This document shows positions 5,460-49,820 of a DNA stretch of 64,000 nt, piece after piece. This DNA comes from Agarophyton chilense (taxonomy: Eukaryota > Rhodophyta > Florideophyceae > Gracilariales > Gracilariaceae). How positions within the stretch are numbered: position 1 is the stretch's first letter; each line of letters begins with the position of its first letter. Under the pieces are notes generated by a model, which worked only from the letters and a program-made list of their open reading frames with translations, was not told the DNA's origin and did not search any database. The stretch spans positions 248,001 through 312,000 of the forward strand of contig JARGXX010000113.1 of assembly GCA_030374765.1 (NCBI GenBank), in the 5' to 3' direction. Position numbers and translations under genes: made by a program.

Positions 5460-5465
5460 TATAAA
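5460..5465 (+). promoter_or_regulatory. TATA box of the left G gene
   Basis: TATAAA lies about 160 bp before the ATG at 5624 and is conserved at the same distance in the inverted copy (49394-49399). It is the best candidate core promoter and would put the transcript start near 5490. Confidence 0.55.
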
Positions 5466-5623
5466 GAGTTGCGGGCTGGCGCAGCACAGCCACTCCCACT
5501 TGCATCGCCATCAACTCAAGCAGCCCGCTTATTGTGTGTGTCCTCAGCCTTCCTTGCGCAGTGTCTTCCGGAATCCAGCAATTCGGTTGCGCATATCATA
5601 TCACTCACTCATTCGTTGAAGCA

Positions 5624-6625: not shown

Positions 6626-7380
6626 AAGTGGGCAAGGCCTCGTGTGAGGCGGAGGAACGGAGCAATCTAAAAGTTGTGCTATAAAGTATGGAGTTTGATG
6701 GTAAAGCACGAGCGGGACGTGTAGGGCGAATAAACGAATCGCGATGGTGTATGGATTCAAAGAGCTCATTGTTCACAAAGGGCCAGTGGCATTGTGCTCC
6801 TAGTGTAGTTGTGTGTGAGTTGTGTGTGAATTGTGCGCGATGTTGCTATTGTAGACAAAAGTGCCGTGTGTAAGAGGCAGTGCAAACGCATCGCAATGCT
6901 TAACCACTAATCTATGCTGGTCTCCTTTGCATTGAGCATTCAGATCGCACCAATGTCAAGCATTGGGCAGCATCTTTAGTTCGGGGACTGGAAGGTAGTC
7001 TAGTGTTGAAAAGTTGAATCGATATAGGTAGTTTTCTTGGTCACAAGATACAGTTTGCCCGGCAGCTCCGGAGTGCTCATCTCGGCCGTTTGTCGTATGT
7101 AGTTATGTTTTGACCAATGTTCAACTGTGATGCGGTCATGAGCAGCGAAACGCCAAAGTCCAAAAGTCCAAATGAAAACAAATCGCGGCGACATGAAGCT
7201 TCGGAATCGGAAACAAGTTTGTACCGCCTTCGAAACGCTTTTTCTTAATGTTTACAAACATACTGGCTCATTCGAAACTAGATTGCTAGGTTGCAGTGGA
7301 ACATACGTCAGTTTTTACGCATACTCACCATATTCAAGTGTGTCCTCTTTTGAGCTCGCCCACCTTTCTAAAAGCGCGCA
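6626..7380. other. non-coding flank of the left G gene
   Basis: The 3' side of the G gene is almost identical to 47480-48233 in reverse. No convincing gene was seen, only short chance frames. Confidence 0.5.
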
Positions 7381-7708
7381 TCTACGGCATTGAAAGCAAG
7401 CATTCGTCGCGTGTACAAAAACGGTGAGCGCGGATTCTCATGTCAACAACTATCCGCGTCGCAAACACCGCTAAGCGCTTCCAATGGTTTCTCTCCATCG
7501 GCCTCGCGTAGAAGCCGCCCTGGAATTCGGGGAACTTTTGTTCGAATGTCGTGGAGCAGACACAAAGACAGTTGGCGGCCGCTATGTAAAGTTGGAGTCC
7601 TCATCGCGGAACATAATCGGTGGAGATTTGGTTATGGAGGTGATACGCGCGGAACAGCATGTCACCATTGTGCTGCACCTCTGGGTGCTGGGTTGTGGGA
7701 TGGGCCAT
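7381..7708 (+). pseudogene. conserved reading frame at the G/MULE boundary, unidentified
   Basis: One plus frame, running from about 7435 through MVSLHRPRVEAALEFGELL, is matched in the inverted copy (47115-47435, minus) with mostly conservative differences: V/I, D/E, K/Q. Nucleotide identity here is clearly lower than in the rest of G. It has no good start and runs into the MULE TIR, so it is probably a piece of an older host gene. I cannot name it. Confidence 0.3.
7699..7708. repeat. 10-bp direct repeat GATGGGCCAT, copy 2
   Basis: Exact repeat of 4974-4983, abutting the first base of the E1 TIR. Confidence 0.6.
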
Positions 7709-15629: not shown

Positions 15630-17183
15630 TTAGTCATATTCCGACAGCCTGAGGCGCCATCGAGCGAGGCGGCTCGATGCATCTGTCATACTGAGGAACC
15701 TGAGGAGTGAATAGTGGTCTGTACTAATCGTAAACCCAGTTCCCTTGAGGTATGGGCGGAGTGTCAATACAGACCATACGATGGCTAGACACTCCTTTTC
15801 GGTAGTACTGTAGTTTGGCTCCGCGCTGGTGAGCGTTTGGCTCCTGTATCCAATAGGTCGATAGTCCTTCGGTGACCCCTGTTCCTGTAGCAGTGCACAT
15901 CGCACTTGGACATCAGAGGCGTCTGTGTCCAGGACAAAAAGCCTATTTGGTTTTGGTAAAGCCAGTTTAGGTGAGTTCAGCAATTTGTCCTTTAGGGTCT
16001 GAAATGCATCGTATTGGTCGTCGGTAAGGGCCTCAAACCCCGAAGGTGCTCCCTTTTTCAGCGTCGCACTGAGAGGGGCCGAGATTTTAACAAACCCTTG
16101 GACGAAACGATGGCAAACATTGCAAAAGCCCACGAAGGATCGAAATTTCGAGTGGTTCCTGGGGAGTTTAGCCTTACGGATCGCATTCGTGGTCCTTTTC
16201 GCTACCTTTAGCTTTCCTAGAAAGACAACGTGACCGAGATAGTCCACCGAGGCGTGGAAGAAGGCGCATCTGCGAAGTTTCAGTGTTACTCCAGCGTCCT
16301 GTAGGATTGTTAGTACCGTTTTCATATGGCGAAGGTGTTCCTTAACGGTCCATGAGAAGATGATCACGTCAACTAAAAAAACCAAGGCGAACATCCATTT
16401 GACTCTGGATAGCATGATGGCCCTTACCCGTAAGAAGGGTTCTGGTACATTCTCTAAACCAAAGGGCATACGACTAAATCTGAACAGACCTTCATGGGTG
16501 GTGAAGGTTGTCAGCGCTCTCGCATCTTCGGCCAAAAGAATTTGCCAATTTCCGGAGTTAGCGTCCAGTGTGGTAAATACGGCAGCTTCCCCAAAGAAAT
16601 CTAGACAGTCATCCAAACGGGGTATCAGGTATGAGTCCCTCTTGCTTACTGCGTTCGGTTTTCTGTAGTCGACAAAGAACCTGACGGCGCCATCCTTCTT
16701 CGCCGCGAGGACAAGGAGACTTGCCCATTTGGATTGGTTAGGAGGCGCCGGCTCTATGACGTGAGCTTTGCGCGTTTTGTCCATCTTGTCGGCAACAATT
16801 GTCCTACCATTCAGGCCTGTATGGTAAGGGTGCTGGAACTGTAGTCTAGCATGATCCTGAAAGTCAATACAGTGTGTAGTGGCTTTGAATTTTCCCAATC
16901 TACCTGACCACAGGGCCTGGTATTTCGTAAGGAGATCAAGTACCTGTGGCCTATAAGATTCTAATTCCGCGCCGATAGCGACTGTCCTCTCCCAAGAGTC
17001 GACGTCCTCGCCGGGAGTTGTCGTGGAAAGGTTATCCAACTGGGCCTCCATGATGCCCACGGGTGTGGGTAGAGTGATGCCAAGTAATGCACCTTTAGGT
17101 AACTTTACGGGCTTATCTCTGAATTTGCTGATTATGACCAAGAAGGGCCTGTTGTGGCGGATGTCTATTACTCCATTGGCCAT
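15630..17183 (-). pseudogene. gypsy copy B: reverse transcriptase and RNase H
   Basis: This 517-codon open stretch shows reverse transcriptase blocks (RFFVDYRKPNAVSKRDSY, FSRMPFGLENVPEPF) and the active-site block FLVDVIIFS, where the usual first Asp of LDD is Val. RNase H follows with LFVLDTDASDVQVRCALL and ECLAIVWSV. The active-site change makes the enzyme probably inactive although the frame is long. Confidence 0.85.
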
Positions 17184-17495
17184 TAAGGTGGGGTGCTTCA
17201 GAACCGTTTTCGGGTGGATCTATATCGCAACAAGACCTGCGGACCGGAAATGAACCGATACTGTGATTTGCGTCATCGAGGGTATCATTATAACTTTCGT
17301 CAAGCGAACCTGTTCGGACTTTGTGTTTTTGGAGATAATCGCTCGTTGGCGGTTAGCATCTGGCCCTGGGGTGGAGCCAGCTATGGAGATGGAAGGTGTG
17401 CGATAGAATGCGACTTTCTCAAGGCCTGGATAAATAGCCTTAATGTATCGATCGATAAAAGAGGTCCCTAGGATTGCCTCAGCGCCCAAGTTAGG

Positions 17496-21587: not shown

Positions 21588-22311
21588 GAAGGTGAGATAT
21601 AAAAAAAAAGATTATAGCGACATGTTAATTGATTTATCGCTCACTTTGTTTGCGATGTAGAACACGTTCTTTAAGATCTATGTAAGGAAGATGAAGATAA
21701 ATTTGTATGCATGATGTGCACTGAGTCCTACAGAAATCTTCAAATTCACGGTGGACTACAGGCAGCAACGTTCAAGCTGTAAATTTCAGTAGTCTATCAA
21801 GACGTCTATGAAATCGTAGATGCGGAAGAACGTGAAGTAAACCCTGTGCCTTTTGTCCATAGTTCGAAGAAAACTGCTTATCTGTGCAGCGACATGATTA
21901 ATTTAGCTCTGATAGACATGAAGCCAAAGCCAGGGGTTTTTATTTGTCAGCGCGACACTGGAAAATCTATAACCGGGTATGCGAACAGGATAGACACAGA
22001 ACACATGGATTAGGATGACATCGTAGAAACAATGATGAAGCTTTTTTTTCAGACACTTTCAAGGAATGCGACGGGCTATGACTGTTCAATTCATACCATA
22101 GTCGTCTCTATGATACTCTCAAATCAGCATTGAGGGGTTCTCGTAGGACAGGCGTCGACGAGAAGTAGCTAGAACATAAAACAGAAGCCCACACTATTCT
22201 TCGGTGATGGTTTACGCTGGAAATGTCCAAGTATTGGTGCTTTTTAATAGAGCGTTTGAATAAACTATTATGAATGGCGACCGTTCTGCAGTTCTTTAAA
22301 AAAGGAATTAC
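21588..22311 (+). pseudogene. E1 leader and 5' part of its peptidase gene
   Basis: The stretch is the reverse complement of about 3757-4440 in MULE-L. It covers the sequence just inside the TIR and the start of the Ulp1-like gene and is full of stops. It ends abruptly in GGAATTAC, where the 10.6-kb element begins; the gene resumes at 32932. Confidence 0.6.
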
Positions 22312-22337
22312 GTCTGTGTTTTCGGAAAGCTAGTATT
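22312..22337 (+). repeat. left TIR of the 10.6-kb element
   Basis: The 26 bp begin GTCTGTGTTTTCGG and end CTAGTATT. They are inverted at 32906-32931 with one difference (T to C in the inner run). Confidence 0.85.
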
Positions 22338-23667
22338 GGGTGCTAGATTTCTATTTTGGGTGTGCTAGAATGTCTATGGTAAGCATTCAAAAATTCGCAG
22401 AAATTTGATGCCAGAATATCTAGCGCAAAAATACTAGCCCAAGTGAATTTTGGGGAGAATCTAGGAAACTAGCAAACATCCGTACTAACACCGGCACACC
22501 AGAAAGAATGGAACAAAACTTGGGAGATATCTTTCGATACTCATTTATCCTAGACCATGAATTCTACCGACAATGAACGGAATACTGAATGCTATCTAGC
22601 GCATTATCATTCATTTCGTGCAGGTATCGTAGCTAGTATGAACCATTAAAATGCTTTGCAAATTCAATTTAATGTTCTCTAATGACCCTATGGCCAGTGC
22701 ATAATACGGCGATCCTGCAACTGAGACCCGAAACGGGTCCCCGTTGCACGTGAAATGACATCTTCCGAATTCACGTGCGCTTTGCATCACGTTCTCTGAT
22801 CGTTACGCTTCACTTCGCGTCGCGCGAAGCGCAACGCAAAGAACCCTCCATTCTCCGAGAACCGTCCAAGCGGTACACGAGTTCACCCTTCATCAATCAC
22901 AAATTCCTATATTACTAGATAGACATCACAAACTCACACAAGTTAGAGCCCAATTCCTCGCTTCATGCAAGCAAATTCCATATAAACAAACTTACCTCTC
23001 CCAAATATGTGCTCCTTGTCTTGCTCCCACTTTGTGCATTCGCATCAATAAATAGACCAAAGTCAGATCTCCGTCACAAATAAAACCCAAACCACATCAG
23101 CACCACACTCACCTCTATAGTGACCACTTATCCTACCTCTTGTCCAATCTTGCCTCCCTGTTCTCTTGCAGCAGCAAACAACGGCAAGTCAGATATCCTT
23201 CCGTAACGCATACAAGATATGAATGAAGCTCGCACTTACCTTTGATGCCACCATTTCCCGATCAACCACTGTCGTAACAAGAAAGAAATATAAGTCAGAC
23301 TTCCGCCAAAAATCGAAACCACATTACTTAAATGACGCACTCACCTCCTAAGAACCTTGCTCGGCCCAGTCCTTCCAGAATGTCCCCCTCTTCACCTAAT
23401 CGCTCCTTTCTGTCGCTTCGCAGCAGCAAAAAATAACATGTCTGATTGGTGATTCTTCGACAAGCCTGCGAGGACTTTCGAATGCTGGAGGAACTATGGC
23501 TCTTGGAATCATGCACTTTGCCCGTTTTCGAGGAGGCCCTGTTTCCCCCGCAGTTGTTTCTGCTCTTCTCTGATATAAACCGGATTCCTCATCCCCTGTG
23601 GAAACTAAAGTCTCTGTTTCCTGGGATTTCAATTTGCGCATTGGATACATTCTAGAGCGATCGTTCT
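22338..23667. other. left subterminal region of the 10.6-kb element
   Basis: The first 350 bp hold at least seven CTAG-core motifs (CTAGAT, CTAGAA, CTAGCG, CTAGCC and others). Farther in, from about 22900, is a CT-rich plus strand with repeated AAGTCAGA-like strings about every 70-130 bp (near 23062, 23187 and 23292), perhaps intron-like material of a captured gene. No coding region can be supported. Confidence 0.4.
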
Positions 23668-24170
23668 TCACAGTGTTACTAGAGATATTCGAGATATTGG
23701 ACACTTTTTGGTGTGAACCCTCTCCCAGATACGGGAGAGTGTCTTTTCTCGGACGGCGACGGTAGGTACTGGACACATGTCATCTCCATGACCTTCGCTG
23801 AAGCATCGAGGGCACACCTGCCTGTCGCAATCCGGGCAGGTCATGTTCGCGGTATTGACGCATAGTTTACGCACATTGCACCGCAACAGTTTCCAACATC
23901 CCACCTTTGGACACCATGCTGCGGTAGGGTTGCTTCCATGCTGAATCTTGGAGCAAAAGAAAAGACACCTTTTGAATTAGAGCTCTCCCACGATATTTCT
24001 CACTTCGGCGTCGGGGATGAGCTCATGGCACAGAAAACAGGAGAGATGATTGAAATCACCGTCCTTGATTTCGACGCGAAGCCACGAGCGGAGACAGTGA
24101 TGAAAGGCGGTGACGCGGCATTGCGGGCATGGGCGTAAAGGGGACGAATCTGGATGAAAACAGATTTTGC
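23668..24170 (-). pseudogene. RBR-type E3 ubiquitin ligase fragment (RING1-IBR)
   Basis: On the minus strand a frame ending near 23985 gives CKICFHPDSSPLRPCPQC and HHCLRSWLRVEIKDGD, then SCFLCHELI, like the first RING of RBR ligases. After a stop and frame change, the IBR-like part reads AAWCPKVGCWKLLRCN, MTCPDCDRQVCPRCFSEGH and DDMCP. It is followed by a Trp-containing linker and THTKKCP-like cysteine spacing at the start of the second RING. RBR ligases pass ubiquitin through a RING2 cysteine, which is missing here. The piece is broken and lacks both gene ends. The assignment rests on cysteine spacing. Confidence 0.55.
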
Positions 24171-24865
24171 ATCTTGCGTCGTCATATTAAGCTGGTGAGG
24201 GCATACCAGCGTCGGTGAGAAAGTCAGGGTCTTGGGGGCGGAAGCGCGCCAAGCTGAAGTGTTGAGTGACGGACTGAAAAGGCACGGGCAGGAAGTCGGG
24301 ATACTCGGCATCGTCGGCGCTCTGGGAGGAAGGGACGGCATCGGTTTGCACAAGAACGTCAGTAAAGCCAAAGTGGGCGTACAGGCGATGCAGTGCCATG
24401 CTAAGCGACGGAGGATGGAGGAGGAAGAAGGAGTGAGGGGGCGAGGGGGGCAGATGGGGCAGATGAGGTGCGGTGCCGGATGACAGATCGATGTTTTGGG
24501 ATCCGGGGCCTGTTGGAGGTGGTGGCACGTTGAGAGGTGACGACGATAGGCTGAGAATCTGGTCCGAAGAGCTGCGTCAGTCGTCGGCCTCGGAAATGGA
24601 AAAAGATGGATGGCCATCACTTGGTTGAGACTGACTCAGATGAAAGAGTAAAATGGTACACAAAAAAAGATGAACTCAGCCCTCATGATCCTGGGTGAAG
24701 TAGATACTCGTACCAAACCTTGATCAAGACGTAGGCACAGTTATTGTATCATTTGCAGTAGGGCGCTAAAGAGAGTTTTTCCAGCTCTCAATGCGGAGGG
24801 TATTCTGGTGATCGCTCTGCCCTCCATCTATTTTCGGCGGCAGATTCCTACGATGGAACGAAGGT

Positions 24866-26285
24866 TCAGGAGGCGTGGCTGTCAATGCATGAAATCACGA
24901 CCCGAGAATATGACTTAAAACTGCTGAGACTTTTTTTTGCATCACATGGCAGTGGAGCGTGATGACTGGTGGGGGTACTTGAACTTCGAATGAATGCTGA
25001 TCCTGAAGTTCCAGTAAGGACCATTGGATGTGCACTAAGTTCATGTTGGCCAAAATTTCTGATTCCATCGCCCAATAAATTATCTTGAAACCGAGGGTTA
25101 GATCGACTTTGGCAATAGGCTACTTTTCGATATGAGTTCGTGGTCCATCGAAAGGTATTCCCTCCCAAAATGTGGGAATGACCAGTCGGAAGACCGTAAC
25201 AATTGATTGAGTTATTTGCTGCGGAACATAACCTGTCTTCTCCCAGCTTGTTGCTCTTTTGGGGCGAAGGACCAAAAATCGGGCGGCCTCCGTCAAGGTT
25301 TTCATTTTGCTTTTCTTCAACTCTTAGCATTGGAAAGGGCTTTGTTAGACACTCTATTGAAGTAGGCAAACGACCGGCCTTAAGGATACGGAGAGAAGTT
25401 TTCTTTCGCCTTTCCTCAATGCAAGATTTCTCTTCGGCTGAAATCGTATGATATCCACCGGATGCATAGTTTCTAAATAGATTCAAGAAAGATGACTTAT
25501 GGTGCAGATTGAGATCTTAGATGCGGTAAACCGTATTTCACTTCTATTCACAGAGTCCAGAAAATCATGTTCAGGGACATCCAAGAACAGCATGTCATCA
25601 TCTGAATTGAACTTGTCGGATAGTTCACATTTGTTCCCAGCAGAAAGAATCGTGCGCTCAACGACTTTCCTCGTTCCCTGGGACGTTGTTTCTGGAGAGA
25701 TGTTGGGGTGATGGGCTACGAAAGTTTCAAACTGAATAAGCACTCTTTGCGCTAGTGATGATGCTCGTGACTTTTGAAAGTACGACGCGCCACTGTTTTT
25801 CCCATGCACGACATCCTGTTTGTTTTTGCTCTTTCGTACAGAAGTAAGTATTTCCGACAAGTCTACAGAGATCTTCCCAGACAAATTTGGCAGCGACAAA
25901 GACCAGTGGAATTCCGACGAATTTTTTACATAGGACGATGGTGCAACCTAAACCAAGTTCAGCTCCGCGTTCGTCCCATAAAGTTTGAGCAACCCGTAAT
26001 GGTCTGGTATTCCGTCCTGAATATCCCTCCAAGCGTTCTCAAGACTACATGTCAGGGAGATGCAGTATTGATCTTCAGCGCGAATAACCGTCTTTTCTCG
26101 GTATGGAACGAAATACCGGATGCCCTCTGCCTTCTTGGAGTGGTCCCTAATGGTGGCGTTGATATCATCGATTATTCGAAAGGTGTCAGGGAAAAAATTG
26201 AAGTCCGTTTGGGACGAAAGTATATCATACGATACATGATGCTCATCATTCCATACTTGTGAAGTTTGTACAACCCTTGTTAGGA
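24866..26285 (-). pseudogene. unidentified captured gene fragment
   Basis: Three long minus-strand frames follow each other with few stops (25948-26285, 25483-25899, 24866-25486). Together they read like one protein of more than 400 residues, with a mixed N-terminal part (TDFNFFPDTFRIIDDINATI) and a Ser-rich, low-order rest. The plus strand is less protein-like. A GTAAGTATT near 25842 hints at an old splice site. I do not recognise the family. Confidence 0.35.
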
Positions 26286-26313
26286 TGAGAACGTTGGGAT
26301 TGAGGCGGCACGC

Positions 26314-27030
26314 ATGCATCAAGACCGAAAGATCGCCGGTCGTATTCTGGTGAAGGCAGTGAAGAACGTGCCAAAGTTGAGCAATTTTTGGCTGCAAGCA
26401 GCGGCGCTGGAGGTCGACAAGTCAGCGAAGAAGCGGGTATTGCGAAAAGAGTTGGAGGTGATTCTGAAGGGGGTAGATGTGTGGAAAGCTTCCATCGAAG
26501 TGGAATATCCGGCTGGAGTGCGCATGCTGCTTCTCAAGGCTGTTGAAAGAGTACCCCAGGAGGTAGATATGTGGATTGCATTGGCGCACCTAGATAGTTA
26601 TAAGCGGGCAAGATCGGTTCTGAAGCAAGCACAGAGGGTGGTACCTGGGCACATAGTGGTTTGGATCACAGTTGCACAGCAAGAAGAAATAGAACATGCC
26701 AAGAAAACGGAGGAGATGGTGAGGATCATGAGGGAGGGCGTCAAATGCGTGATCATTTCGCGGGAAAGATGGATCGAAGAAGCAATCGCAATGGAGGCGG
26801 GTGGGTATGACGGCACTGTGCACGCTATTGTGGAAAGTGCCATTGGAATAGGTGCAGGAGAACGGGAACTAGACCAATGTTGGTTCGAAGCGGTCTTCGA
26901 GGTGGTGGTCAGGGGGGTGGTAGTGAGGTGGGCGGTGGTACGAGTGGTTGTAGTGCGAGCGATCATGGGGTTTGCCGCGAGGGGTGTAGTGGAAGCGGTG
27001 ATGGACTGGGCGTTTGTGAAGGCGGGCTAG
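26314..27030 (+). pseudogene. PRPF6: PRPF6/Prp6-like HAT-repeat fragment
   Basis: Residues 1-190 of this open frame track the HAT-repeat region of the U4/U6-U5 tri-snRNP protein PRPF6: KKRVLRKELEVI, then W.A..E.E.P, then VDMWIALAHLDSYKRARSVL, then VVWITVAQQEE, then IGIGAGERELDQCW. In the cell this protein bridges U5 and U4/U6 snRNPs. Only about a quarter of the gene is present, without the N-terminal PRP1 domain, and after about 26890 the frame turns into low-complexity Val/Arg/Gly sequence. The frame stays open although the copy is plainly partial. Another HAT-like scrap may lie at 27500-27640. Confidence 0.75.
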
Positions 27031-27084
27031 TTGGAGTGGGGCTTCGTGAGAGGGTTCGTAGTCAGAGTTAAGGTTGGAGCGGTG

Positions 27085-27330
27085 GTTGAGGGAGAGTTAG
27101 TGCGGGGGTGAGTTGCGGACGGGGTTGCGGCCGTGAGTTTCGGACGGGGTTGCGGCGGTGTTGGAGGGAGAATTAGTGCGGGGGTTAGGTGGGGACTGGG
27201 TTGCGGCCGTGGTGGAAGGAGATTTAGTGCGGGGGTTAGGTGGGGACAGGGTTGCGGCGGTGGTGGAGGGAGAGTTAGTGCGGAGGTGAGTTGCGGACGG
27301 GGTTGCGGACGAGGTAGCGGCCGCAGATGA
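27085..27330 (+). repeat. GC-rich minisatellite, unit about 51 bp
   Basis: About four to five degenerate units share the core TTAGTGCGGGGGT and GGGTTGCGGC. The 51-bp length is a multiple of three. It lies directly after the PRPF6 fragment and may have grown out of it. Confidence 0.7.
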
Positions 27331-28011
27331 TGTTTTGGTTGTGGTTGTACAAATGTTGATTTTGAAGACGGAGTTGGGTGTGGCATTGTATTTAGCAGGA
27401 AGTCGGGGAAGGTATGTCGCACTGAGAAAGGAGGTGGAGAGGAAATGGCAATGTTATGGTTAATTGCGGACGGGGTTGCAGCGGAAGATGATGTTTTGGT
27501 GAAGATGGTACAAACGTGGGTTGTGAAAGCTGAGTTGGCGTTTCCAGTGGATTCAGAAAGAGATCGGGGAAAGGTTGCCCTGAGGAGGGGGCTGGAGAGA
27601 ATGTGGATCACGGTGACGACGGTTGAGGCAAAGTAAAATGAAGTTTGGAAGCAGTCGGTGCGCTAATCCCAACAAGATGGCGAGTTGGAGGGTTGGCTTT
27701 CGGAAAAAAGGTGCGTAACGTGCAGCGTTGGATGCACCTCCGGTGAAAGCGCTGAGGGAGAAGGGAGGAGGGGAATGCGGAAATGGGGATGGCGGGATGC
27801 GGCTGTATGCAGGGGCGCGAGCAGCGCGGTAAATGTTTGGTGCGCGTCGAGCTGGGGCTTAAGGATGACTAGGGTTGAGAGAGAGGGAGGAGGAGGGTCC
27901 AGGGAAGGGAAGGGATTGCGTTCGGGGTAGTTGTGGTGGTGGTTTGAGCATCGCGGTTGCCGGGTTTTTTGGACCTCGACAAAGAGCCGTGCGCGTATGC
28001 AGTGATACCCG

Positions 28012-28197
28012 GCAGGAGGCCAATCGACACGGCGTCGCTGACGTCCGACTTCCGGCAATGTTTGAGCCTACTCTTTCTGTAGGTGGAGAGCAGATCGGCC
28101 TAAACGAGCTGATTTGCAAGGTACGGAGATCTGAACCTAGCTTTCTGATTGGTCAGAAGTCCGACGTCAGCGACGCCGTGTCGATTGGCCTCCTGCC
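28012..28197. repeat. short foldback: 42-bp inverted repeat with 100-bp loop
   Basis: GCAGGAGGCCAATCGACACG and the next 22 bases recur inverted at about 28156-28197 with about two mismatches. It could be a small MITE-like element or a captured hairpin. Confidence 0.7.
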
Positions 28198-28446
28198 CGA
28201 TTTCACCGCCTGTAGCCACCAGTAGCTGCAACACCCACTTTTCTCGCACATTTCTCCTACTCGCCTCGCCATCAACGTTGCTCACTGGAATTGATCTCTT
28301 TGCTACGCAGCAGCTCTTCGCTTCCTCCGCGTAGGCCCCGCGGTGTAGCGGCTCCGCGTGTCTACTGTGTGACCATTGCGTCTGTCCGTCCGTGTGCTCA
28401 CCTCGTTCATTTGCGTTCATGGTGAAGCTTCCTGACGCGGCGCACG

Positions 28447-29230
28447 GTGGCTAGCGTTCCCGACGACACTTTGTTTGACGCCATTTCGTCCGTGATGGCC
28501 TGCTATGAGACCTATCCTCTGTTTCTCCCTTGCGCCCCGACCTTTCGCACGGCCATGACCCATGATCGTGGTCGCATGGTCGTGGCCGCACGGTTTTGGT
28601 TGCCTGGTGCTCTACTTTCCTGCCGTACTCTTCTTGCACTCCCGTCTGCGCTTTCGCAGCATGTTTCCACCAGTCTCGCTCTGATCGCTGCTCTCGTCGC
28701 TCCACAAGCATATCGATAATGCCGCTATGTGAGGCACAGCTCGACAAAGAGTTACAAACTTCACACGGTGGAAAACTATGTCATCCGCGCTCTTACTAAC
28801 TTTCTATCTTTTATATCGTCCAATCTCCCACATGATCAATTCCCGACACTGAATCGTGTGCGAAATCACCACGCGGTGTATCGCTTTGAGTTCGCTTTGG
28901 GTGGCCATGAATTCCACGTCCACTGCAAACACTGCACATGTCCCCTCCGCTCGTTGAATCTCGAGTGCGTCTTTGAGCACATGAAATCTTGCACGCGACG
29001 CTTGCGTCTCTCACCAGGCTCCTCTTGCGGGTCATTCCTCGTGAGCCTGTCGTGTATCATCTTTGGAGCGATACCCACCGTTGCGACCAACTGTAGAATC
29101 TTATGAATCCGGGAGTCATGCACCGAGGAGAGCGAAACCACCATGTTCTGCAAAACTCATGACCATTGGCTCAACCGCCCGTATCGCAATCCTCACTCCC
29201 TCCACCAAACAGGCATGCGCTGCGCTCTCA
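28447..29230 (+). pseudogene. unidentified captured fragment with Cys/His-rich stretch
   Basis: Plus-strand frames 28447-28719 and 28729-29106 are protein-like and could be one gene with a frameshift. The second contains HCKHCTCPLRSLNLECVFEH and a following Cys, a possible zinc-binding arrangement. No family is recognised. It is a fragment in the packed element, next to the GH16 piece and convergent with it. Confidence 0.3.
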
Positions 29231-29241
29231 TATGCCACATG

Positions 29242-30075
29242 TTAGACTCCACCCGTTTTGAGTTTGTAAGAGTTTATCAGCTGCACTACGACGCTCGGCA
29301 TCCCGAACCAGTGAGGCATCGTTTCACAATCGACCTGTACCCACATTTCCTCGTGCCACTGTTCATTAGGAATTTGTCGAACGATATTGCCATTCATAAT
29401 CCATCTAATGTACTCCGGCGTGCATTCTAGGGCAGTGATGAATGTCTCATCACAAACTCGGAACGGCAGTGTTGTGGATTGAGGGTGATGCAATTTTCTT
29501 TCCAGAATTTGACCACCCTTGCGGAACACATGTGTGTTCATGGTGTAATTACGGTCGTAACCGCACTTTCCACTCACCTCGAACACACCGATTTGATTCC
29601 ACGTCTGAGCGTCGTTGCAGGCGAACCAGAAAGCACTTGCAACACAGGATTCTGCCGGCTCCACCTTTGCTTCGAAATATCCATATCTCACCTTTGTCTT
29701 GCTTCGAACAAACGCGGTTGAGAATTTGTGGTAGTCCGGAGGATAACAAGTCGGAGGCGCTTGTAGACGCGAGTGCAGCTGCAGGCGATCGTCTCGAACC
29801 GTCCCATTCTCCCTGTTAATCCATCCAGGAGCTCGACCCTTCCTATTTCTGTTGAATGGCTCCCACTTGTCGAGGTTCAGGGCATTACCTTCGAATTCGT
29901 CACTTACGCTCTCTATCAAAGTCCAGTCTCCTTCCTTTCCAGAAGGCCGTGAAGGAACTCGATCCAATAATCTATCCAGTAAGCCAATTGTCTCGTGCTT
30001 GACGTTGTGCCACTTTTCTTGACGCGATTGTACTTCTTGCGTTACAAAAGTTTTCAATGCCCCCGAGCCTTTCAA
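29242..30075 (-). pseudogene. GH16-family protein with altered active site
   Basis: This 277-residue frame has the GH16 beta-jelly-roll landmarks: DEFEGNALNLDKWEPFN (about 59-75), TAFVRSKTKVRYGYFEAKVE (120-139), SAFWFAC (147-153), and TMNTHVF (178-184). GH16 agarases, porphyranases and carrageenases cut red algal wall galactans with an E-x-D-x-x-E motif. Here that position (161-166) reads Q-I-G-V-F-E, so the nucleophile Glu is Gln and the Asp is Gly; only the acid/base Glu remains. No signal peptide is joined to the frame. It is probably an inactive captured copy, though a non-catalytic binding protein is possible. Confidence 0.75.
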
Positions 30076-30418
30076 CTGTTTTTTTGTATCTGAGTTTCAC
30101 AAAAATCCACTTTCCGGCTGGTGTCAGTATCTTGCTTGCAACTGGCCAGCGCAAACCGCGTCACCATTGAAGACTCAGCACACACCATGACCGGCTGCCA
30201 AATTGCACCGTGAACGAGAATATGAGCGGTCTCGGCCAACTTCGGAGTCGAACGGTTCCACACAACGCTTACATGCGCCCTCGTGCATGGCTCACACTGT
30301 TTGGATATCGGAGGCGCGATGGGGACTTTTCACGTAGTTTGTCGGTCAGTCTCTCAGTTGCCTCTCTCGCGTCCGTTTTCGTCTTCACTGCTTTGGAGCA
30401 CCCGTCCTTGAAGCAATA

Positions 30419-31790
30419 TGTACAACTACGTCGTCACCGCGCACAAGGCGGCGCGCGTCTGACACACAGCCGTGGGCAGCTTCTTGGCCGCGGATCAGCG
30501 CAACCTGCTCGTTGCCAAGGTCAGCTACATTCAATTGTATACCATAACCAAGGAAGGGAAGGCATGTGTCATTGAACTTCCAAATCATGGAGCTATTTCC
30601 CGTATGCACCTCATGCGAATCCCGGGTGAGACACAGGACCAACTTATCGTCATCACGGAAAAGTACAAGTTATATGAGCATTGTCGACCCCAAAGCCAAA
30701 TGTGTCGCGCTTCATCAGTACAAGCGTCTGCTGAAAGTAGTTCCCACCGAACGCGATGCTGACAAAACCGCCTTTAACGTCAGGCTCCTTGAGGAAACCA
30801 TCTTCGACATGGTGTTCCTCCACGGCTTTCAGTATCCCACTGTAGCCGTCTTGTGTGCTCATGGAAAAGAGAGCCGCGAGTTGCGAACGTAAGAAATCCG
30901 TATGAACGACCAAGACGTTGCGGAGGGTTCGTGGAAGAGCGCAACGCTGGAGATTACCGCCTCGAAACTCGTTGCTGTCCCAGATCCCATTGGCGGCGTT
31001 CTCATATTTGGAGAGGACTTTGTGACATACCTTACGGCTCATGGTGGGCAAATATCGCAACCATTCGAGGTTGCAATCATAACTGCCGTGGGCAAAGTGG
31101 GCGAGAAAGGCACTAGATACCTCATCGGTGATGAGAAGGGCTGTCTTAGCATTCCTTTGCTTATCACAGACCAAAAGAATACCATTACTGGTATCAAACT
31201 AGAAGCACTTGGCGAGACAAGTACTGCCTGTTGCATCTCTTATTTGGACAGTGCGTTCGCGTTCATGGGCTCTAATACCGGCGATTCACAGCTTGTTCGT
31301 CTAGGACGTGAGAGAAACGTATAAACTGGAAGTTTTGTAGAAATTGTACGAACTTATCCTCACTTGGGACCTATAATTGACTTTTGTATTGTGAAGGGTA
31401 TTGGATACTTACGACACGACCAGAATCAGGTGATCACATGCTCAAGGAAAGGATTGATCTTTGAGGATAATCCGCAAAGGAATCGGTATTTCTGAACATG
31501 CCTCGGAGGAGTTGCCGGGGATCAAGGACATGTTTTCTTTGAGGCGACATATCGATGAAAGATATGATTCGTACCTTCTTCAGACTTTTACTTCGGCTAC
31601 GAGGATGCTTGAACTAATCAGCGCCGACGAAATGGAACCGGCTAGAGTCTACCAGGGTTTGACGAGGAGACTCCAACCCTCTTTGCTGCGAACATGGAGG
31701 GTGATTTTATGGTTCAGGTTACGATGAAGAGCGTGCAAGTAACAGATTGCGTGACCATAACTGCACAGCCCACTCTCAGCTGGGTTCCAC
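30419..31790 (+). pseudogene. DDB1: DDB1-like fragment, frameshifted
   Basis: The fragment starts at the native ATG with MYNYVVTAHKAARV and follows the first beta-propeller of DDB1 over at least five frame changes. Recognisable blocks are TAFNVRLLEETIFDMVFLHG, AVPDPIGGVLIFGEDFVTYL, RYLIGDEKGCLSIPLLI, YLDSAFAFMGSNTGDSQLVR and LRIIRKGIGISEHASEELPG. DDB1 is the adaptor of CUL4 ubiquitin ligases and part of UV-damage recognition. About the first third of the roughly 1100-residue protein is present. The sequence before the ATG may be the captured promoter and leader. Confidence 0.85.
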
Positions 31791-32905
31791 CGGCGAACAC
31801 GCGTATATCGAAGAGCTTAGAGCGTTTCCCGTGAGTGAGGAGGATGTGGAGAAGGTGGAGGCAACGAAGGAGGTGGGCAAGAGGAAAGGGAGAGTTGGGG
31901 AGGAGACGCCAAATGTGGCGAGGGATACGGAGCTTGAGATAATGAGGGTGAAGGTGAAGGTAAGGGAGAAGAAGGGGAGAGAGAAGTAGGGGAGCTGGGT
32001 GGGTTGAGGACGTTGGCGACTGCTGTTAGTAAGACGGAGAGGGTTCTACCATAGCAGGAGATGTAAAGGTGGAATACTCTGGAACGAAAGGAGGAGCGTG
32101 GTGGGGGTGGAGCTGTGAAGGAGGAAAGGGTTAGTTCTCCGAAAGACTTCTATGCGCTGACGTTCCCGGAAACGGAAACGCAGCCGCCACCGGGCGGGAA
32201 GTACTTCTGAAGGGAAGAAATAGTGGGGTGATTCAAGAGTTAATTAGTGTTTAGTAAAGGGAAGTAAACTAGCGTTTCATTTACATCGAATGAGATGAAA
32301 ACTAGCGCTTTAGTGCCCTTGCGTTCTGCATTCTCCATTGCTAGGATTCGTGTGAATGCACGAAGGTGTGGTATCCGAAAAAACTGAATTAATTGCTTGC
32401 ACATTGCCCATTCCTCATTTTTGCAGATTTTTTTGACGATTTTCTTTGCCCCCTGCGCTTCTTGCACCTCATACTAGCATTGCAAGAACACCCCAGTTGA
32501 AGTAGGAGGCCTGATGGGGAAGAGGAGAAGGAGAAGGAGGGTTTGTGGCGGGGATTGCGGGGAGTGGAGAGGAGGATGAGGGGTGCAAGGGGATGGTGGA
32601 CGACACCAGATCGTATTGCGGATGGTAATTCTGGGAGATGTCATTGTCATACGGGTTTGTTGGAGGGTGTTTGAGAAAGACTATTGTCATTCACATCTAG
32701 CGTTTGGCATCCAAACATAGGCGGTACACTAGCAGGGGCTTTTGCCTTCGTTTCCCATTCATAATGTGCAGGTTTTTGATGTAGAATCGAAATCCAAAAC
32801 TAGCTGGCACTCTAAAAAATTAACAGAAATTACCTCTGCATCCGCGATCCGTCATTTTTCGCAGATTTTTCGCCGGATATCTTCCGGCATACTAGACTAG
32901 CGGCT
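31791..32905. other. right subterminal region of the 10.6-kb element
   Basis: Positions 31820-32210 are purine-rich and encode a Lys/Glu-rich plus frame, then a possible C-terminal tail (KDFYALTFPETETQPPPGG, before a stop near 32208) of another captured gene that I cannot name. From about 32270 the CTAGC/CTAGT motifs return up to the TIR. Confidence 0.4.
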
Positions 32906-32931
32906 AATACTAGCTTTCCGAGAACACAGAC
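32906..32931 (-). repeat. right TIR of the 10.6-kb element
   Basis: Inverted copy of 22312-22337 with one mismatch. Confidence 0.85.
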
Positions 32932-33290
32932 ATAAATGCTAGAAGTGAAGAAATATTCTCGGCAGAGATATGAGCACAGCTGCAGGTGTTATGTCATACC
33001 TGCGGCGGTTGAGTTTGCTGCGGATCGAGGAGGTGCCCCTAATCGTAGTTTTTCCAAAATTTTTAGTACTGCGTTATCGGAAAAGTACAGGTCGATTGCA
33101 ATCCGGAGTCACATAGTACATTTTTTTATTTCCTACAAATTCTACGAAAGGAAACAAGTATCTAAAATTATGCTTCAACAGTATCGCTTGCATCATCGCC
33201 CTTACATCTGTTACGTTCGGGAGCCAGGGAAGTGCCACTTGAAGGAGATTTTACAGTCCTGTTATTGAACGGAGTGATTTGCTGATGACG
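32932..33290 (+). pseudogene. E1 Ulp1-like peptidase, C-terminal part
   Basis: The frame resumes after the inserted element with MLEVKKYSRQRYEHSCRCYV. The catalytic Cys of the SCG motif is kept but the Gly is Arg. The rest matches MULE-L (3448-3776, minus) and MULE3 (56116-56382, minus). Stops and the 10.6-kb insertion make it non-functional. Confidence 0.65.
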
Positions 33291-36066: not shown

Positions 36067-38480
36067 GTGGCAGAAGAGGTAATGAAGAACAGGAATAGCA
36101 TGGAAACGATAGAGGAAGACATTTGGCTACAGCTTGATAATAGTATTTCTGACCTGATCGATCGTTTTCTGTTTTCAGATGAAGAAGAAGAGAATCCTCC
36201 AGATAGTTTCGACATACAAGAACCCCTCAACGATGATGACGACACTGAACGTCATGATGAAGTTGACTTCCACGTCAGAGATGGAGAAATATAGAAGAAT
36301 ATTTCGCCCAGTGTTGAAAGTGGAGAGGTTGAAGATAACAAGAACAAAATTGAGGAATGCTTTAAGGTGGCGGCCATTGCTTATTTTCAAAGTCCATCTG
36401 GCGATGAGCCTGGAAATGATGTCATGAAGGAAGTGCAGTATAATGCGGATTTTATGGTGTACTATCTGTATACGAGGACAAAGATAGACGTAACTTACAG
36501 AAAGCGAAGAAGCGAAGCAAATGGAGTCGCTAAAGACCGTCGTTTACTACACCAGGGCATCCTTAAGTGCAAGAAATACAATTCGAAGCGATCTGAGAGA
36601 TGCAATTTCTCTTTTACTATATCAAGACAGTCGGTTCAGATGAAGAAAGAGCAGGTAGATCCTACCGAGCAGACTGCACGGGGGCTAGACACAATCACAA
36701 TCCTGCAGAAAGCTGCGGGGTGAAGTGTCTGACACCCGAGATGCTCACCGGAGCCCTTCACATTCCTAATACTCTTAGAATATTCTGCCAAGACATGGTA
36801 AGATACTAGGAGGATAAGTAAAACAAAAGAATCAATCCTGTCACGGCTCGGATGCAACTCGGATACGCAGGTTCGTTGAGCAATCCAAAGGATCCGGAAT
36901 GCATGAAACCATGTGAAGCCCTTGTAGCCCTAAACAAAGAAGACGCAGGCGACAAGTTCTTCTTCAACTGTGACTTCTTCGGGGGAATGATGTCTGCATG
37001 CTGTTTTTTCAGGGAGTGGTTGAATGAATACGAAGAGTGTGGAATTGTTCCAGACATTTCTATGGATTTAAAAGCAGTAGCGAATCGTTTCGGATATCCC
37101 TTGTTTACAATCAATGGGAGATCAAGCGATGGATTTATTATAGCGTTCTTCAATTGTTTTATTGCCGGAGAAATAGAAGAAGATTTCGATCAGGTACTTT
37201 CTCGTTTCGAATCCATTATTCTGTTCTCTCTGGCAATGATCACTATGGACCGGAGCGTGCCGTGTATTAATGCGACCGAAAAGGTCTTCGATAGATCTTT
37301 TATTGCACTTTAATAGTGGCATCTGAATCAAAACTTGATGAAGAATGTCACTTCGTGGTGTGGGAAAGTTGGAAGGGGCACATGATGCAATGATACGTCG
37401 CGAGACCTCTTTAACCTAAGAAGATCGAGAAGTATATCATGTTTTATTTCTAGAAGACTGGCGTTCGAACAACGGTATTTCTACGCTTTGGAACGTAGCC
37501 CTCCGTTCTGGTTCAAATACCTCTACCACTTGAAACCACAAATGTTAATGGTTGGTTTCAGAGACGCAGCTGTACGGAAGAGGTATCATTTTCAAGGCAC
37601 AGGCAGTACAGAGGCATTTAATTCTGGACTTAGGGCAGACATTCAATCTATGAAGGAGCCTTTCTCTAGGATCCCCTACCGAATTCACCGGCTTAAGAGA
37701 AAAACGATATTTGGAATGCAATCCTCACATCTCAGATCCTTTAGTTCGCTCAGCTCACGTCACCGATCTATCCGGGTTAAATAGATCCCCATCCCCCCTC
37801 CAGTTCTGAACTTCATGAAAAATGAGTACACAAGCTTTGTGCATCTGGAGATTAAGGAGCTCAGTATATTTCCGTCAAAAAAGTACGCAGTGTTAAGCGC
37901 AACAATTGTAGATACCGAGGCTGTGGAATGGCCTGAGCTCGACATAGTTGAGAACTATGTCGGACTTCTCGCGCGATTGGAGCCTATGTGGAGAACAACG
38001 TATGCCACAGCCTCCAAAACAATTTTCAAGTCACGTCACGCCAATTTATCGAAGGCATATTTCACACTGAATACTCCGCTCTACCTCTAACTGTGCTGTT
38101 TGCCTAAAGAGTACACGAAACTAGCACAGAAGCTTAAAAAACCTCGAAGTGCGCTACAATTGTAGGAAGAACATCAAAATGGGGTTTTCATGCCTTCATA
38201 TTGTTTGGTGCGCAATTATGTACTGCGTAGAGGTTTTCCATCAGCAACGGTTCAAAGCTGTACTCTCAAAATAAATTCAACTTAACAAACTATTTGAAGC
38301 ATACTGGAAGCAAACCTTGGAAGACTGGAACATTTGGAAAGTGTCTGACATTCTTTCAACAGCCGATGTAATTGATGCAAATGAGTTTAAACCCAAGCTA
38401 ATAGCCGTAGAGCGCAAAGAGAACGCAAGAAAGAAGTTCAATGAGCTCGTAACAGGCAATTCGAATTTTGAGCTTCGCAA
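36067..38480 (+). pseudogene. MULE transposase of E1
   Basis: An acidic N-terminal part (LIDRFLFSDEEEENPPDSF) is followed by a FAR1-like zinc-binding region (ILKCKKYNSKRSERCNFSF, about 36.4-36.75 kb). The DDE core is at 36852-37320, with the first Asp in ISMDLKAVANRFGYPLFTIN and the second in ITMDRSVPCINA. The C-terminal part has ELDIVENYVGLLARLEPMW and a SWIM finger near 38160 (NCRKNIKMGFSCLHIV), in which the first Cys is Tyr. At least five frameshifts or stops separate these. It would catalyse cut-and-paste transposition by binding the TIRs; it is dead here. Confidence 0.75.
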
Positions 38481-39217
38481 CTACGGCTAATACTCAGGTA
38501 AGAAGGCAGTGTGAGACTAGATGGATCGTTTGCCTTCCAACATGGGCATAATTGCAGTTTACAGAGTGCATAGGTTTTTAGAACCAGTGTAGAATATGTT
38601 TTGTGATGGTTCTATTTCTTCCTTAGCTCTTGCAGCTTAGGAAAAACCTGTACTTCTGACGAATTCTGCAAAAGAACATTACTTCGATTCAAGATCTATC
38701 GATCAAAATTACTTTTTGAAGACAATGTCTCCCATTATGTCCTTCATAAGTCATTTTATAAACGAAAAGAGCCTAAAAAGCGGTTTGCTACGAAAAGGCA
38801 ACAAATCAGTGCGCTGCAACCATCGCTCTTGGCTGGTAATTGCTCTTAATCTGAGACTCTCACTCCAGCTTTTCATTTTGATACAAACGGTGCGTACCCA
38901 AGAGCAATAGACATAACAGAACGCGTACATTATAAGTAAACTTGACAATAAAGAAATGAATTAGTTTGATTTATATGAAAACGTACGAAGTGCAAATAAA
39001 GAGCTTCTGTGGACGCTATAGAATAGCTACGCCTATGTTTCGTCGCTCGAAAAGTCTGGATATACGATTATAGCCATAACAAGCAGGATGGAGGTGAGCT
39101 GAGAATCAAAGATGTTTGCCCAATCATCTGGAAGGGAAAATATTTGTCGCCCTGAGAAATATCTGCTTCAGCCCGCTAGTCATCTGTGCATCTCAGGTTC
39201 AAATGCGTGTTTTTTTT
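38481..39217. other. E1 3' untranslated/subterminal region
   Basis: AT-rich sequence with no convincing frame, between the transposase and the 3' TIR. Confidence 0.5.
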
Positions 39218-47152: not shown

Positions 47153-48233
47153 GATGCATCCCACACCCCAGCACCGAGCGGTACAGCACAATGGTGACGT
47201 GCTGTTCCGCGCTTATCACCTTTACAAGCAAATCTCCACTGATTATGTTCCGCGATATGGACTCCAACTGTACATAGCGGCCGGTACCTGTCTGTGTCTC
47301 TGCTCCACGACATTCGAACAAAAGTTCCCCGAATTCCAGGGCGGCTTCTATGCGAGGCCGATGGAGAGAAACCATTGGAAGCGCTTGGCGGTGTTTGCGA
47401 CGCGGATAGTTGTTGACATGAGAATCTGCGCTCACCGTTTTTGTACACGCGACGAATGCTTGCTTTCAATGCCTTAGATGCGCGCTTTTGGAAAGGTGGG
47501 CGAGCACAAAAGAGGACACACTTGAATATGGTGAGTATGCGTAAAAACTGACGTATGTTCCACTGCAACCTAGCAATCTAGTTTCGAATGAGCCAGTATG
47601 TTTGTAAACATTAAGAAAAAGCGTTTCGAAGGGGGTACAAACTTGTTTCCGATTCCGAAGCTTCATGTCGCCGCGATTTGTTTTCATTTGGACTTTTGGA
47701 CTTTGGCGTTTCGCTGCTCATGACCGCATCACAGTTGAACATTGGTCAAAACATAACTACATACGACAAACGGCCGAGATGAGCACTCCGGAGCTGCCGG
47801 GCAAACTGTATCTTGAGACCAAGAAAACTACCTATATCGATTCAACTTTTCAACACTAGACTACCTTCCAGTCCCCGAACTAAAGATGCTGCCCAATGCT
47901 TGACATTGGTGCGATCTGAATGCTCAATGCAAAGGAGACCAGCATAGATTAGTGGTTAAGCATTGCGATGCGTTTGCACTGCGTCTTACACACGGCACTT
48001 TTGTCTACAATAGCAACATCGCGCACAATTCACACACAACTCACACACAACTACACTAGGAGCACAATGCCACTGGCCCTTTGTGAACAATGAGCTCTTC
48101 GAATCCATACACCATCGCGATTCGTTTATTCGCCCTACACGTCCCGCTCGTGCTTTATCATCAAACTCCATACTTTATAGCACAACTTTTAGATTGCTCC
48201 GTTCCTCCGCCTCACCCGAGGCCTTGCCCACTT

Positions 48234-49235
48234 CTACTTTGACGCCCGCTTCCTCACGCCCTCCACCACAGCAAGCAGCCGCGCCTTGGCCTGCTGCGAC
48301 TTGCCGCGGTTGCCCTGCACCACGCGACCGTGCTCCACCGCCTTCCGGCGCTTCTCGCGACTTTTCTTTGCCGACTCCCCGGCCTTCTTGGCAGCGTCGC
48401 GTCGCGTCTTCTCCAACCTTTCCCACTCCGCCCTCAGCGCCCCACACTCCACGCATTCCCCCCCCTTCTCCTGCGCCTTCTTTTCCTTCTCTCGGAGCGT
48501 CTGCTCGCCCTTCTTCGCTTCGCCTTCTGCCGCCACCGCCTCGTTCTTCAAAATCAGCACCTCCCGACTGGCCTTGTACACCTCCGCCGCGTTCTGGCTC
48601 GCAATCCCGGACAGACGCCCGGATTCCACCCCGAGCTCCACCACTGTTTCCGCTTCTTTTTCGATGGCAACGCTTTCCTCCAAGCTCATGTGCGGCCTCA
48701 GTGCCTCGGCCGTCTTCAGCACGTCGTTCACCGCAATCACATCCGCTGCGATTTCCGCCACCATTCTGTACGCCTCCATGCTCACCAGCATGGCCGCGTC
48801 GTTGGCCAAGTCCACTTCCGTGTACGCGTTCAGCGCGGCGTCCGTTGTGTCCATCACCTGCTCGAACTTGGTGCATGTCCCGGCGTCCGGCGTGAGGTGA
48901 CAGCCGAACAGTTCGCTCTCGCTCGGGATGGCGTCTGTGCTGGTTGTGTACAATGCGCAGCTGGCTCGCTTGCACCTTTCGTAGCCCAGGCAGTCGCACC
49001 GGTACGACGGCTTGCATGTCCCCAACACACACTTGTCGTTTCCTTCGTGCTGCATGCACAGCTTTGCCGATTCCACCTCCAGACACGGGCACGACGTATC
49101 CGTTATCTGGCACCCCTGCGCCTCGCCGGCCTGTGCGCACACCACACCACTGCATGCTGCAAGCGCAACAACGCACACCACCGTCCTCCACACGGTTGAC
49201 ACCGACATGTTCATAGAATGATGACTCTTCACCAT
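48234..49235 (-). CDS. secreted cysteine-rich / coiled-coil protein, G copy 2
   Basis: This intact 333-residue frame reads from the ATG at 49235 and is the inverted twin of 5624-6625. Differences seen include Val for Ala and Cys for Gly in the signal peptide (VVCAQ, which adds a cysteine), Ser for Asn, Ala for Glu and Ser for Ala. All twelve domain cysteines, the coiled-coil body and the basic tail are kept. It lies between the end of E1 and MULE3 and points towards E1, as copy 1 does. The family is not recognised. Confidence 0.85.
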   Translation of the reverse strand: MVKSHHSMNMSVSTVWRTVVCVVALAACSGVVCAQAGEAQGCQITDTSCPCLEVESAKLCMQHEGNDKCVLGTCKPSYRCDCLGYERCKRASCALYTTSTDAIPSESELFGCHLTPDAGTCTKFEQVMDTTDAALNAYTEVDLANDAAMLVSMEAYRMVAEIAADVIAVNDVLKTAEALRPHMSLEESVAIEKEAETVVELGVESGRLSGIASQNAAEVYKASREVLILKNEAVAAEGEAKKGEQTLREKEKKAQEKGGECVECGALRAEWERLEKTRRDAAKKAGESAKKSREKRRKAVEHGRVVQGNRGKSQQAKARLLAVVEGVRKRASK

Positions 49236-49393
49236 TGCTTCAACGAATGAGTGAGTGATATGATATGCGCAACCAAATTGCTGGATTCCGGAAGACACTG
49301 CGCAAGGAAGGCTGAGGACACACACAATAAGCGGGCTGCTTGAGTTGATGGCGATGCAAGTGGGAGTGGCTGTGCTGCGCCAGCCCGCAACCC

Positions 49394-49399
49394 TTTATA
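49394..49399 (-). promoter_or_regulatory. TATA box of the right G gene
   Basis: TATAAA on the minus strand, at the same distance from its ATG as in the left copy. Confidence 0.55.
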
Positions 49400-49820
49400 C
49401 AGCGTCGATGCCCGCTGCGTTACGACTAGCAGTCGGCGCGATCAGGGCCATGCTTGCTCCGAATTCAGCCCTCACCGTCACATGCGCAATGGATGCGGGA
49501 CACATGCCGATACACTGGTCCGAGGCTGAGGAAAGCTTCACCTTGCGCCAGTCGCGAGTCAACAGCGCGCGCTGTTCTCACTCACACAAAGCGGGAGCGT
49601 TACCATTGACGGCGCCTTTAATTCGAGCAAATCCAAGTAGGCGCCTGCTGTCGCACAACGGTTCAGGCGTTGCTTGGACACGACGTTGGTGAGCCAAAAC
49701 GCTCTCTCAACTTGGAGATCTGGCACGGCAACCGCCGTGGAGGCCCCCCAACGAATTACGCAGTGTAGAAAGCATATTCGTGACAGACAGGCCAATCTAG
49801 CTAGCGGGGCGCGGCTGGTG

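Follow-up and report, generated by a model that had tools for sequence, protein, structure and literature searches.

Structure of the element and its insertion site

The DNA analyzed here is a 64,000-bp stretch of the red alga Agarophyton chilense (bases 248001-312000 of contig C113, from an assembly of 79.8 Mb in 135 contigs), hereafter called the window. Its central feature is a 10.6-kb block that carries pieces of host genes, namely PRPF6, DDB1 and a GH16 glycoside hydrolase, between inverted ends (Table 1). Contigs are written as C and a number, and other elements are named after their contigs.

The terminal inverted repeats (TIRs) of the block, at 22312-22337 and 32906-32931, matched over 26 bp with one mismatch. 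The TA target site duplication sets the ends at 22311 and 32932, one base beyond the TIR match on each side, and these outermost bases (C at 22311 and T, read inward, at 32932) differ. CTAG occurred 12 times in the 1-kb bin 22001-23000 and 11 times in 32001-33000, and at most 5 times in every other bin. The flanks, joined across the insertion point, aligned to window positions 4050-3459 with 81% identity, indicating an empty site, and the insertion codon was continuous in protein alignments with 56364-56224 (53% identity) and 46054-45887 (39% identity). An earlier sequence-only reading of this DNA had described the 26-bp termini, CTAG-rich subterminal zones and three empty sites; all were recovered, one empty site by DNA and two, as diverged copies, by protein. 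Its view that the block is a TIR transposon in a red alga is supported by the inverted ends, the 2-bp duplication and the empty sites. The label MULE, which it gave to the element hosting the insertion, was not confirmed, as no Pfam match was obtained for four open reading frames (ORFs) of the flanks and site copies.

Table 1. Features of the element in window coordinates, with donor loci of the cargo
Feature	Position	Strand	Evidence and remarks
Probable non-autonomous Plavaka-family element, whole	22311..32932		10,622 bp; full-length copy (C68a) at C68:2151641-2162261, 98.3% identity
Target site duplication TA, left copy	22309..22310		Joined flanks compared with empty site at ~3754
Target site duplication TA, right copy	32933..32934		Flanks read
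Left TIR, TTTT type	22311..22337	+	TIR comparison; CTAG-rich zone inside
Right TIR, TTCT type	32906..32932	-	TIR comparison
Left terminal module	22311..23442	+	First ≥345 bp common to 12/12 other elements (83-92%; C68a 98%), transposase-bearing ones included
Right terminal module	32220..32932	-	Last ≥240 bp common to 11/12 other elements (C6 excepted)
C10 locus piece	23441..23677	+	C10:717652-717888, 97%; left limit is query start; junction read
C117 piece	23690..24442	-	C117:933264-934023, 95%; ORF with weak IBR/B-box-like zinc-binding match ("RBR" of the sequence-only reading)
C88 piece	24465..24897	+	C88:844400-844833, 95%
C10 locus resumed	24899..25345	+	C10:717899-718347, 93%; ~10 bp beyond departure point
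C10 piece, collinear	25344..26283	+	C10:720887-721836, 96%; preceding 2.5 kb of C10 missing
PRPF6 piece	26282..27030	+	Residues 343-551 of hPrp6 (3jcr); 26282-26890 matches C88:2292226-2292834 (reversed), 92%
GC-rich minisatellite module	27050..28012		Copies spaced 51 and 76 bp; follows PRPF6 piece; in 9/12 other elements
C10 remnant	28208..28240	+	C10:~724182-724213; position inferred via C6 element alignment; may reach further right
GH16 glycoside hydrolase piece	28600..30346	-	C25:258158-260310, 94-96%, donor or sister copy; left limit is query start
DDB1 5' part	30338..31780	+	C10:724384-725923, 94-95%; right limit is query end

The element belongs to a large family

A 25-bp TIR pattern, allowing at most 3 mismatches, was found at 99 + 99 sites in the genome and at none in the reversed control. 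The sequence-only reading had suggested searching for further TIR copies and held that a TIR pair confined to this block, together with the same order of cargo genes in related genomes, would speak against a transposon; the pattern occurs at 198 sites, with differing cargo.

Left (TTTT) and right (TTCT) ends were distinguished by their subterminal DNA. We typed 161 ends, 88 as left and 73 as right; they were gathered by several searches, and the set is not simply a subset of the 198 pattern sites. Seven rows with right-type letters were scored as right, while a few mixed rows (e.g. C4:1124414 and C106:134841) were kept as left, and a facing pair in which both ends were of left type did not enter the pair count. 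Adjacent facing pairs joined a left to a right end in 51 of 52 cases (chance 1e-14 if both types are equally likely). These 51 pairs span 3.5-38.3 kb with a median of 13.2 kb, and the longest may contain nested insertions. Among 17 elements with both flanks read, 13 showed a 2-bp duplication (AA in five, TA in three, and CA, TC, GA, TG and AT in one each), for which chance is about 4e-9. The terminal base was C in 43 and T in 3 of 46 distinct ends, giving termini CGT..ACG (CGTCTG..CAGACG). Six pairs are near-equal in length (10,990-11,001 bp), from which we infer that they are copies of one cargo element; C68b was read among them.

Twelve relatives (C6, C7, C21, C41, C61, C68a, C68b, C77, C80, C103, C109 and C120) were fetched and compared with the window element. 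The transposase-bearing elements C21:389558-408968 and C61:40327-59233 are about 99% identical over nearly 19 kb and have the duplications CA and AA, respectively, which indicates recent movement. In the sister copy C109:513639-535868, the GH16 piece is split by about 20.7 kb, suggesting a nested insertion.

Relatives carry a Plavaka transposase

As the sequence-only reading had stated, the window element lacks a transposase: none was detected in the 10 ORFs scanned with Pfam, and none lies there in the genome-wide list of Plavaka matches. This list holds at least 123 matches (123 scored of 235 candidates), and all Plavaka counts given here are lower bounds. Candidates for the autonomous relative which that reading proposed to look for were found, as transposase-bearing elements with the same left end. 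A 957-aa frame of the 19.4-kb relative C21 matched Plavaka PF18759 (E 9.8e-22; 78 bits against a cut-off of 26.3). It shows an N-terminal zinc-finger-like motif and the residues D281, D398, C418-x2-C421, H697-x3-H701 and E721, which were picked by eye without alignment to fungal Plavaka. In the available text of PMC12730594, the residue order of the CMCT clade is D, D, C(2)C, H(3)H, E, and the C21 frame has C(2)C and H(3-4)H between the second D and the last E (C418/C421 and H697/H701 within D398-E721).

Going inward from the 88 typed left ends, a Plavaka match on the same strand follows after 2.3-3.2 kb in at least 18 cases, and in 16 of these the distance is 3,124-3,182 bp; a 19th left end has its match, which may be nested, at 15.7 kb. 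Counting this last case, a Plavaka match was located inside at least 11 of the 51 pairs. Several open frames among the genome-wide matches are exactly 1,137 aa long and lie on different contigs; they appear to belong to other, perhaps recently spread, Plavaka families.

The Plavaka group is best known from mushrooms, and Mutator elements and Pack-MULEs make target duplications of 8-11 bp. Movement of the block by Mutator-type ends and transposase, as a Pack-MULE, would agree with its TIRs, host gene fragments and missing internal transposase, and the consulted part of PMC6446971 records MULEs of red algae with "various inserts, potentially host derived". The duplication is, however, 2 bp and the relatives' transposase is Plavaka, so the carrier is not a MULE, and we regard a Pack-MULE as very improbable.

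A PF18759 transposase in autonomous members defines Plavaka (PMC8290104). Some relatives of the window element have it, and the 2-bp duplication in 13 of 17 elements falls within the 2 or 3 bp of that group. CACTA/EnSpm proper has CAC..GTG termini and a 3-bp duplication (PMC12730594, as far as its text was available), from which the family differs in both respects. Its ends (CGT..ACG) are neither those of PlavakaA (TGT..ACA) nor those of PlavakaB (CATCA..TGATG), and because neither fits, it is likely a separate lineage, judged by terminal sequences. Being a TIR element without transposase that holds PRPF6, DDB1 and GH16 host pieces with donors, the window element would by these tests be a Pack-type element of the Plavaka branch.

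The cargo derives from several host loci

Cargo donors were sought by DNA searches with cargo pieces as queries, and several limits (28600, 31780 and C10:724213) are query ends. The pieces matched host loci at 92-97% identity, and 6.6 of the 10.6 kb could be mapped. Matches in the PDB were clear for PRPF6 (2e-40; about 210 residues covered), GH16 (7e-30) and DDB1 (4e-24). The RBR-ligase candidate reached 22.9 bits for IBR, below the cut-off of 24.3, and gave no PDB match at E 0.1. Of the "at least four recognisable genes" reported earlier, three therefore stand, together with other host DNA.

The DDB1 cargo maps to the start of a 1144-aa open frame at C10, the only long frame among the family loci that this cargo matches as DNA. 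The C10 pieces of the window element keep the order and strand of the C10 locus. The C6 element contains C10:718316-720245 followed, in order, by C10:723573-724213, and differs from the window copy by a 2.5-kb stretch. Capture of a single block predicts that C6 should hold C10:718347-720887; this was borne out in kind, the right part being different. Because different copies retain different parts of C10, these results suggest one contiguous C10 block of at least 8.3 kb. Left cargo of 3.6 kb is shared with C97:482030 (98%) and C135:1067874 (96%), and these two loci are absent from the genome matches of the GH16 and DDB1 pieces.

Collinearity of four cargo pieces with one host locus could also be explained by a chromosomal segment or segmental duplication whose terminal repeats arose by chance. 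The 198 TIR matches, the empty sites, the duplications and the origin of the cargo from four contigs all argue against this, and we give it hardly any credence.

Other members carry other genes. Pfam was run on ORFs of at least 95 aa, filtered for low complexity, in 7 of the 12 relatives (right part only of C41 and C103, first 10-kb piece only of C68b; C7, C61, C6 and C68a left out). C68b yielded SDR, NifU and RVT_2, C109 yielded TPR_14 and a MED13-type MID domain, and C120 and C80, scanned jointly, yielded TPR_14 and a HAT repeat. DCP1 was found in the right part of C103, and pieces of TsaD and PaO/Rieske were found in the 10 ORFs scanned in C21. The filtered ORFs of C77 and of the right part of C41 gave no cargo match. 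The TPR_14 matches of C109 and C120 were assigned to PRPF6 by DNA identity to the window piece.

Junctions between cargo pieces

Eleven 71-base donor pieces, covering six junctions, were read. C10 sequence runs to 717888 and is taken up again at 717899; the 1.2 kb in between come from C117 and C88, and only about 10 bp of C10 was lost. Filler sequences of about 12-16 bp at C10/C117 and 22 bp at C117/C88 were observed, and the remaining four junctions share 0-3 bp. Apart from single 10-base matches in C103 and C41, neither filler turned up outside sister copies that share these junctions. GH16 occupies a C10 gap of at most 170 bp, between 724213 (a query end) and 724384. A 9-bp microhomology at the GH16/DDB1 junction had been hinted at by overlapping matches; the donors show 1-3 bp at most, and it was rejected.

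No TIR remnant was present at the six junctions read. The sole internal TIR-like match, at 32470 with 8 substitutions, lies away from the junctions and is as frequent as in shuffled controls. These findings bear on a route described for Pack-CACTA elements (PMC13317346 and PMC8903248, in the text available), in which neighbouring elements insert in tandem, lose their inner ends and enclose the DNA between them. Repeated use of this route alone, with no unlinked insertion, would explain the contiguous C10 block well. It accords poorly with C117 and C88 DNA lying inside that block at the cost of about 10 bp of C10, with GH16 in so narrow a gap, and with junctions devoid of TIR remnants, and we consider it unlikely.

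The junctions resemble products of end joining, or of template switching, into a pre-existing block. Replication-based template switching, such as break-induced replication, might have copied C10, C117 and C88 in turn and then returned to C10 within a single event; consistent with it are the return to collinear C10 sequence some 10 bp further downstream, the two fillers and the small overlap elsewhere. The junctions alone cannot tell such switching from stepwise joining, whereas the different C10 parts kept by C6 and the window copy point to one block that was cut down later. A single switching event therefore appears rather unlikely, if somewhat less so than tandem insertion alone.

The PRPF6/minisatellite module, or its minisatellite part, recurs in nine of the 12 other elements, C68a among them, and was lacking in C6, C68b and C80. 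In C109 and C120 it begins less than 300 bp from the left terminal module. Exchange between elements would best account for the PRPF6 module now lying within the window copy's C10 block.

State of the cargo genes

The DDB1 piece has a 94-bp out-of-frame deletion at 30673 and contains stop codons. The GH16 piece has lost 358 bp at 29293 relative to C25, including the C-terminal coding end, the stop codon and flanking DNA. DDB1 frames are longer in the sisters C6 and C109 (417 and 476 aa) and are still partial. The gene pieces of the window copy are probably passengers.

The sequence-only reading had proposed a comparison of introns between cargo and parents. Both gaps that could have been lost introns proved to be deletions: the 94 bp of DDB1 are in-frame coding sequence in C6, and the 358 bp of GH16 are coding end, stop and flank in C25. 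Intron retention cannot separate DNA capture from cDNA capture here, because the C10 match of DDB1 is one open frame. The GH16 piece includes about 0.7 kb past the C25 stop codon, which fits DNA capture and could also be a long 3' untranslated region.

Other features of the window and the genome

Window positions 5111-7702 and 47157-49748 are inverted 2,592-bp copies with 98% identity, separated by 39 kb, and represent a young repeat. A 529-aa open frame on the reverse strand (15633-17219) encodes reverse transcriptase and RNase H and belongs to a flanking retrotransposon. A 1,056-aa stop-to-stop frame at 57785-60952, also on the reverse strand, has a ubiquitin-conjugating domain at residues 789-915 and is probably a host gene. 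Of 15 phycobilisome gene matches in the genome, 14 fell on contig C39, which marks the host as a red alga. There, an identical pair of matches occurs twice (38445-39056 and 224129-224740), each time scoring the same within an 892-aa frame; this may reflect overlapping ends of a circular plastid genome in the assembly.

Discussion

We conclude, with a probability of roughly 0.87, that the block is a non-autonomous member of a large family of red-algal cut-and-paste transposons, the complete members of which code for a Plavaka (CACTA/CMC-like DDE) transposase, with a cargo history as follows. A Plavaka transposase supplied in trans would recognize the 26-27-bp TIRs and the CTAG-rich subterminal zones and move the whole block. 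As collinearity suggests, an ancestral element would first have enclosed a single contiguous stretch of C10, 8.3 kb or longer, from 717.6 kb to a point within DDB1 at 725.9 kb. Later breaks inside the element may have been healed with unlinked host DNA (C117 and C88; C25) at junctions that show short filler and little homology, and deletions and exchange with sister elements, which brought the PRPF6/minisatellite module, would have led to the present mosaic.

Several observations count against this conclusion. Four of the 17 elements lack a matching 2-bp duplication, namely C68a (the 98.3% sister), C120 (one end of which is damaged), C4 and C10, and 4.0 of the 10.6 kb lie outside the donor map. 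A collinear copy of the C10 pieces at C100:467073-477848 (88-90% identity), with a broken DDB1, has no typed family end nearby, and the C10 block could therefore predate its capture as a duplicate. C25 may be a sister copy and not the GH16 parent. The ratio of nonsynonymous to synonymous substitution rates (dN/dS) of the Plavaka frame was 0.54, 0.64 and 0.78 in three comparisons; with no clear constraint, current activity of the transposase is unsupported. Transposition and host-DNA capture were deduced from sequence; neither movement nor transcripts nor excision products were observed. Five other core ORFs gave dN/dS of 0.44-0.95 against the same two diverged copies, and the Plavaka values are not clearly below these; no clear second selected gene emerged from the core ORFs, and the TsaD piece was unconstrained (1.7-2.3) against these two copies.

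Fungal Plavaka, placed in the CMCT clade with CACTA/EnSpm, Mirage, Chapaev and Transib, resembles this family in PF18759 with D, D, C(2)C, H(3)H and E, in 2-bp duplications and TIRs, and in having non-autonomous derivatives. It differs in its termini (TGT..ACA in PlavakaA and CATCA..TGATG in PlavakaB, against CGTCTG..CAGACG) and host, the red-algal pairs measuring 3.5-38 kb, several of those read containing host gene pieces. A fungal Plavaka with an acquired TET/JBP gene is in print (PMC12730594, text seen in part), and EnSpm-Plavaka is mentioned once for a green alga in partly available literature. The Pack-CACTA/Pack-TYPE elements of plants are likewise non-autonomous TIR elements with host gene fragments, moved in trans according to the accessible text of PMC8903248; here movement in trans is presumed, from ends shared with transposase-bearing copies. 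They belong to another transposase lineage and host group and average 0.3-0.5 kb in maize and rice (same text), whereas the red-algal element is much larger and has unlinked patches in an older captured block. Pack-MULEs reach 7 kb, as given in the portion of PMC6431247 consulted.

In another red alga, Chondrus crispus, EnSpm/CACTA families of CMC type have 16-20 kb and 4-5 ORFs (Kojima et al. 2013, as cited in PMC6431247); they were compared by description only, and the portion consulted does not mention host gene capture. The claim of the sequence-only reading that a carrier of this size and mix is new is thus only partly true. Giant non-autonomous transposons of Ectocarpus are also very large, lack a transposase, are presumed to move in trans and have been likened to Pack-MULEs; in contrast to the gene pieces of the window element, most accessory genes in them have unknown functions and are not pieces traced to host loci, and the one family mentioned by name is Sola1-1_Ec32 (PMC12477816, available text). 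No report of Plavaka gene capture in a red alga was found in the literature searched, which left subscription journals mostly outside and Repbase unsearched, and within that partly seen literature no Pack-type element of red algae appeared in print beyond the MULE inserts of PMC6446971.

Large Pack-type gene capture by Plavaka would thus be a variant of the known capture by TIR elements, adding the Plavaka branch, and red algae as hosts, to its range. At 6-7 kb, cut-and-paste elements are said to begin to transpose less efficiently (PMC6431247, portion consulted), a size that red-algal carriers exceed. We tentatively propose, at slightly less than even odds, that red-algal Plavaka elements grow by a capture route other than tandem insertion, in which breaks in elements already holding host DNA are healed with unlinked chromosomal DNA and modules are swapped between copies, making each element a growing and shuffled archive of host gene pieces, up to tens of kb long. 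Because donors, intermediate copies and junctions share one 80-Mb genome, the order of capture can be read copy by copy, and the poorly understood pick-up of unlinked genes by transposons becomes traceable here.

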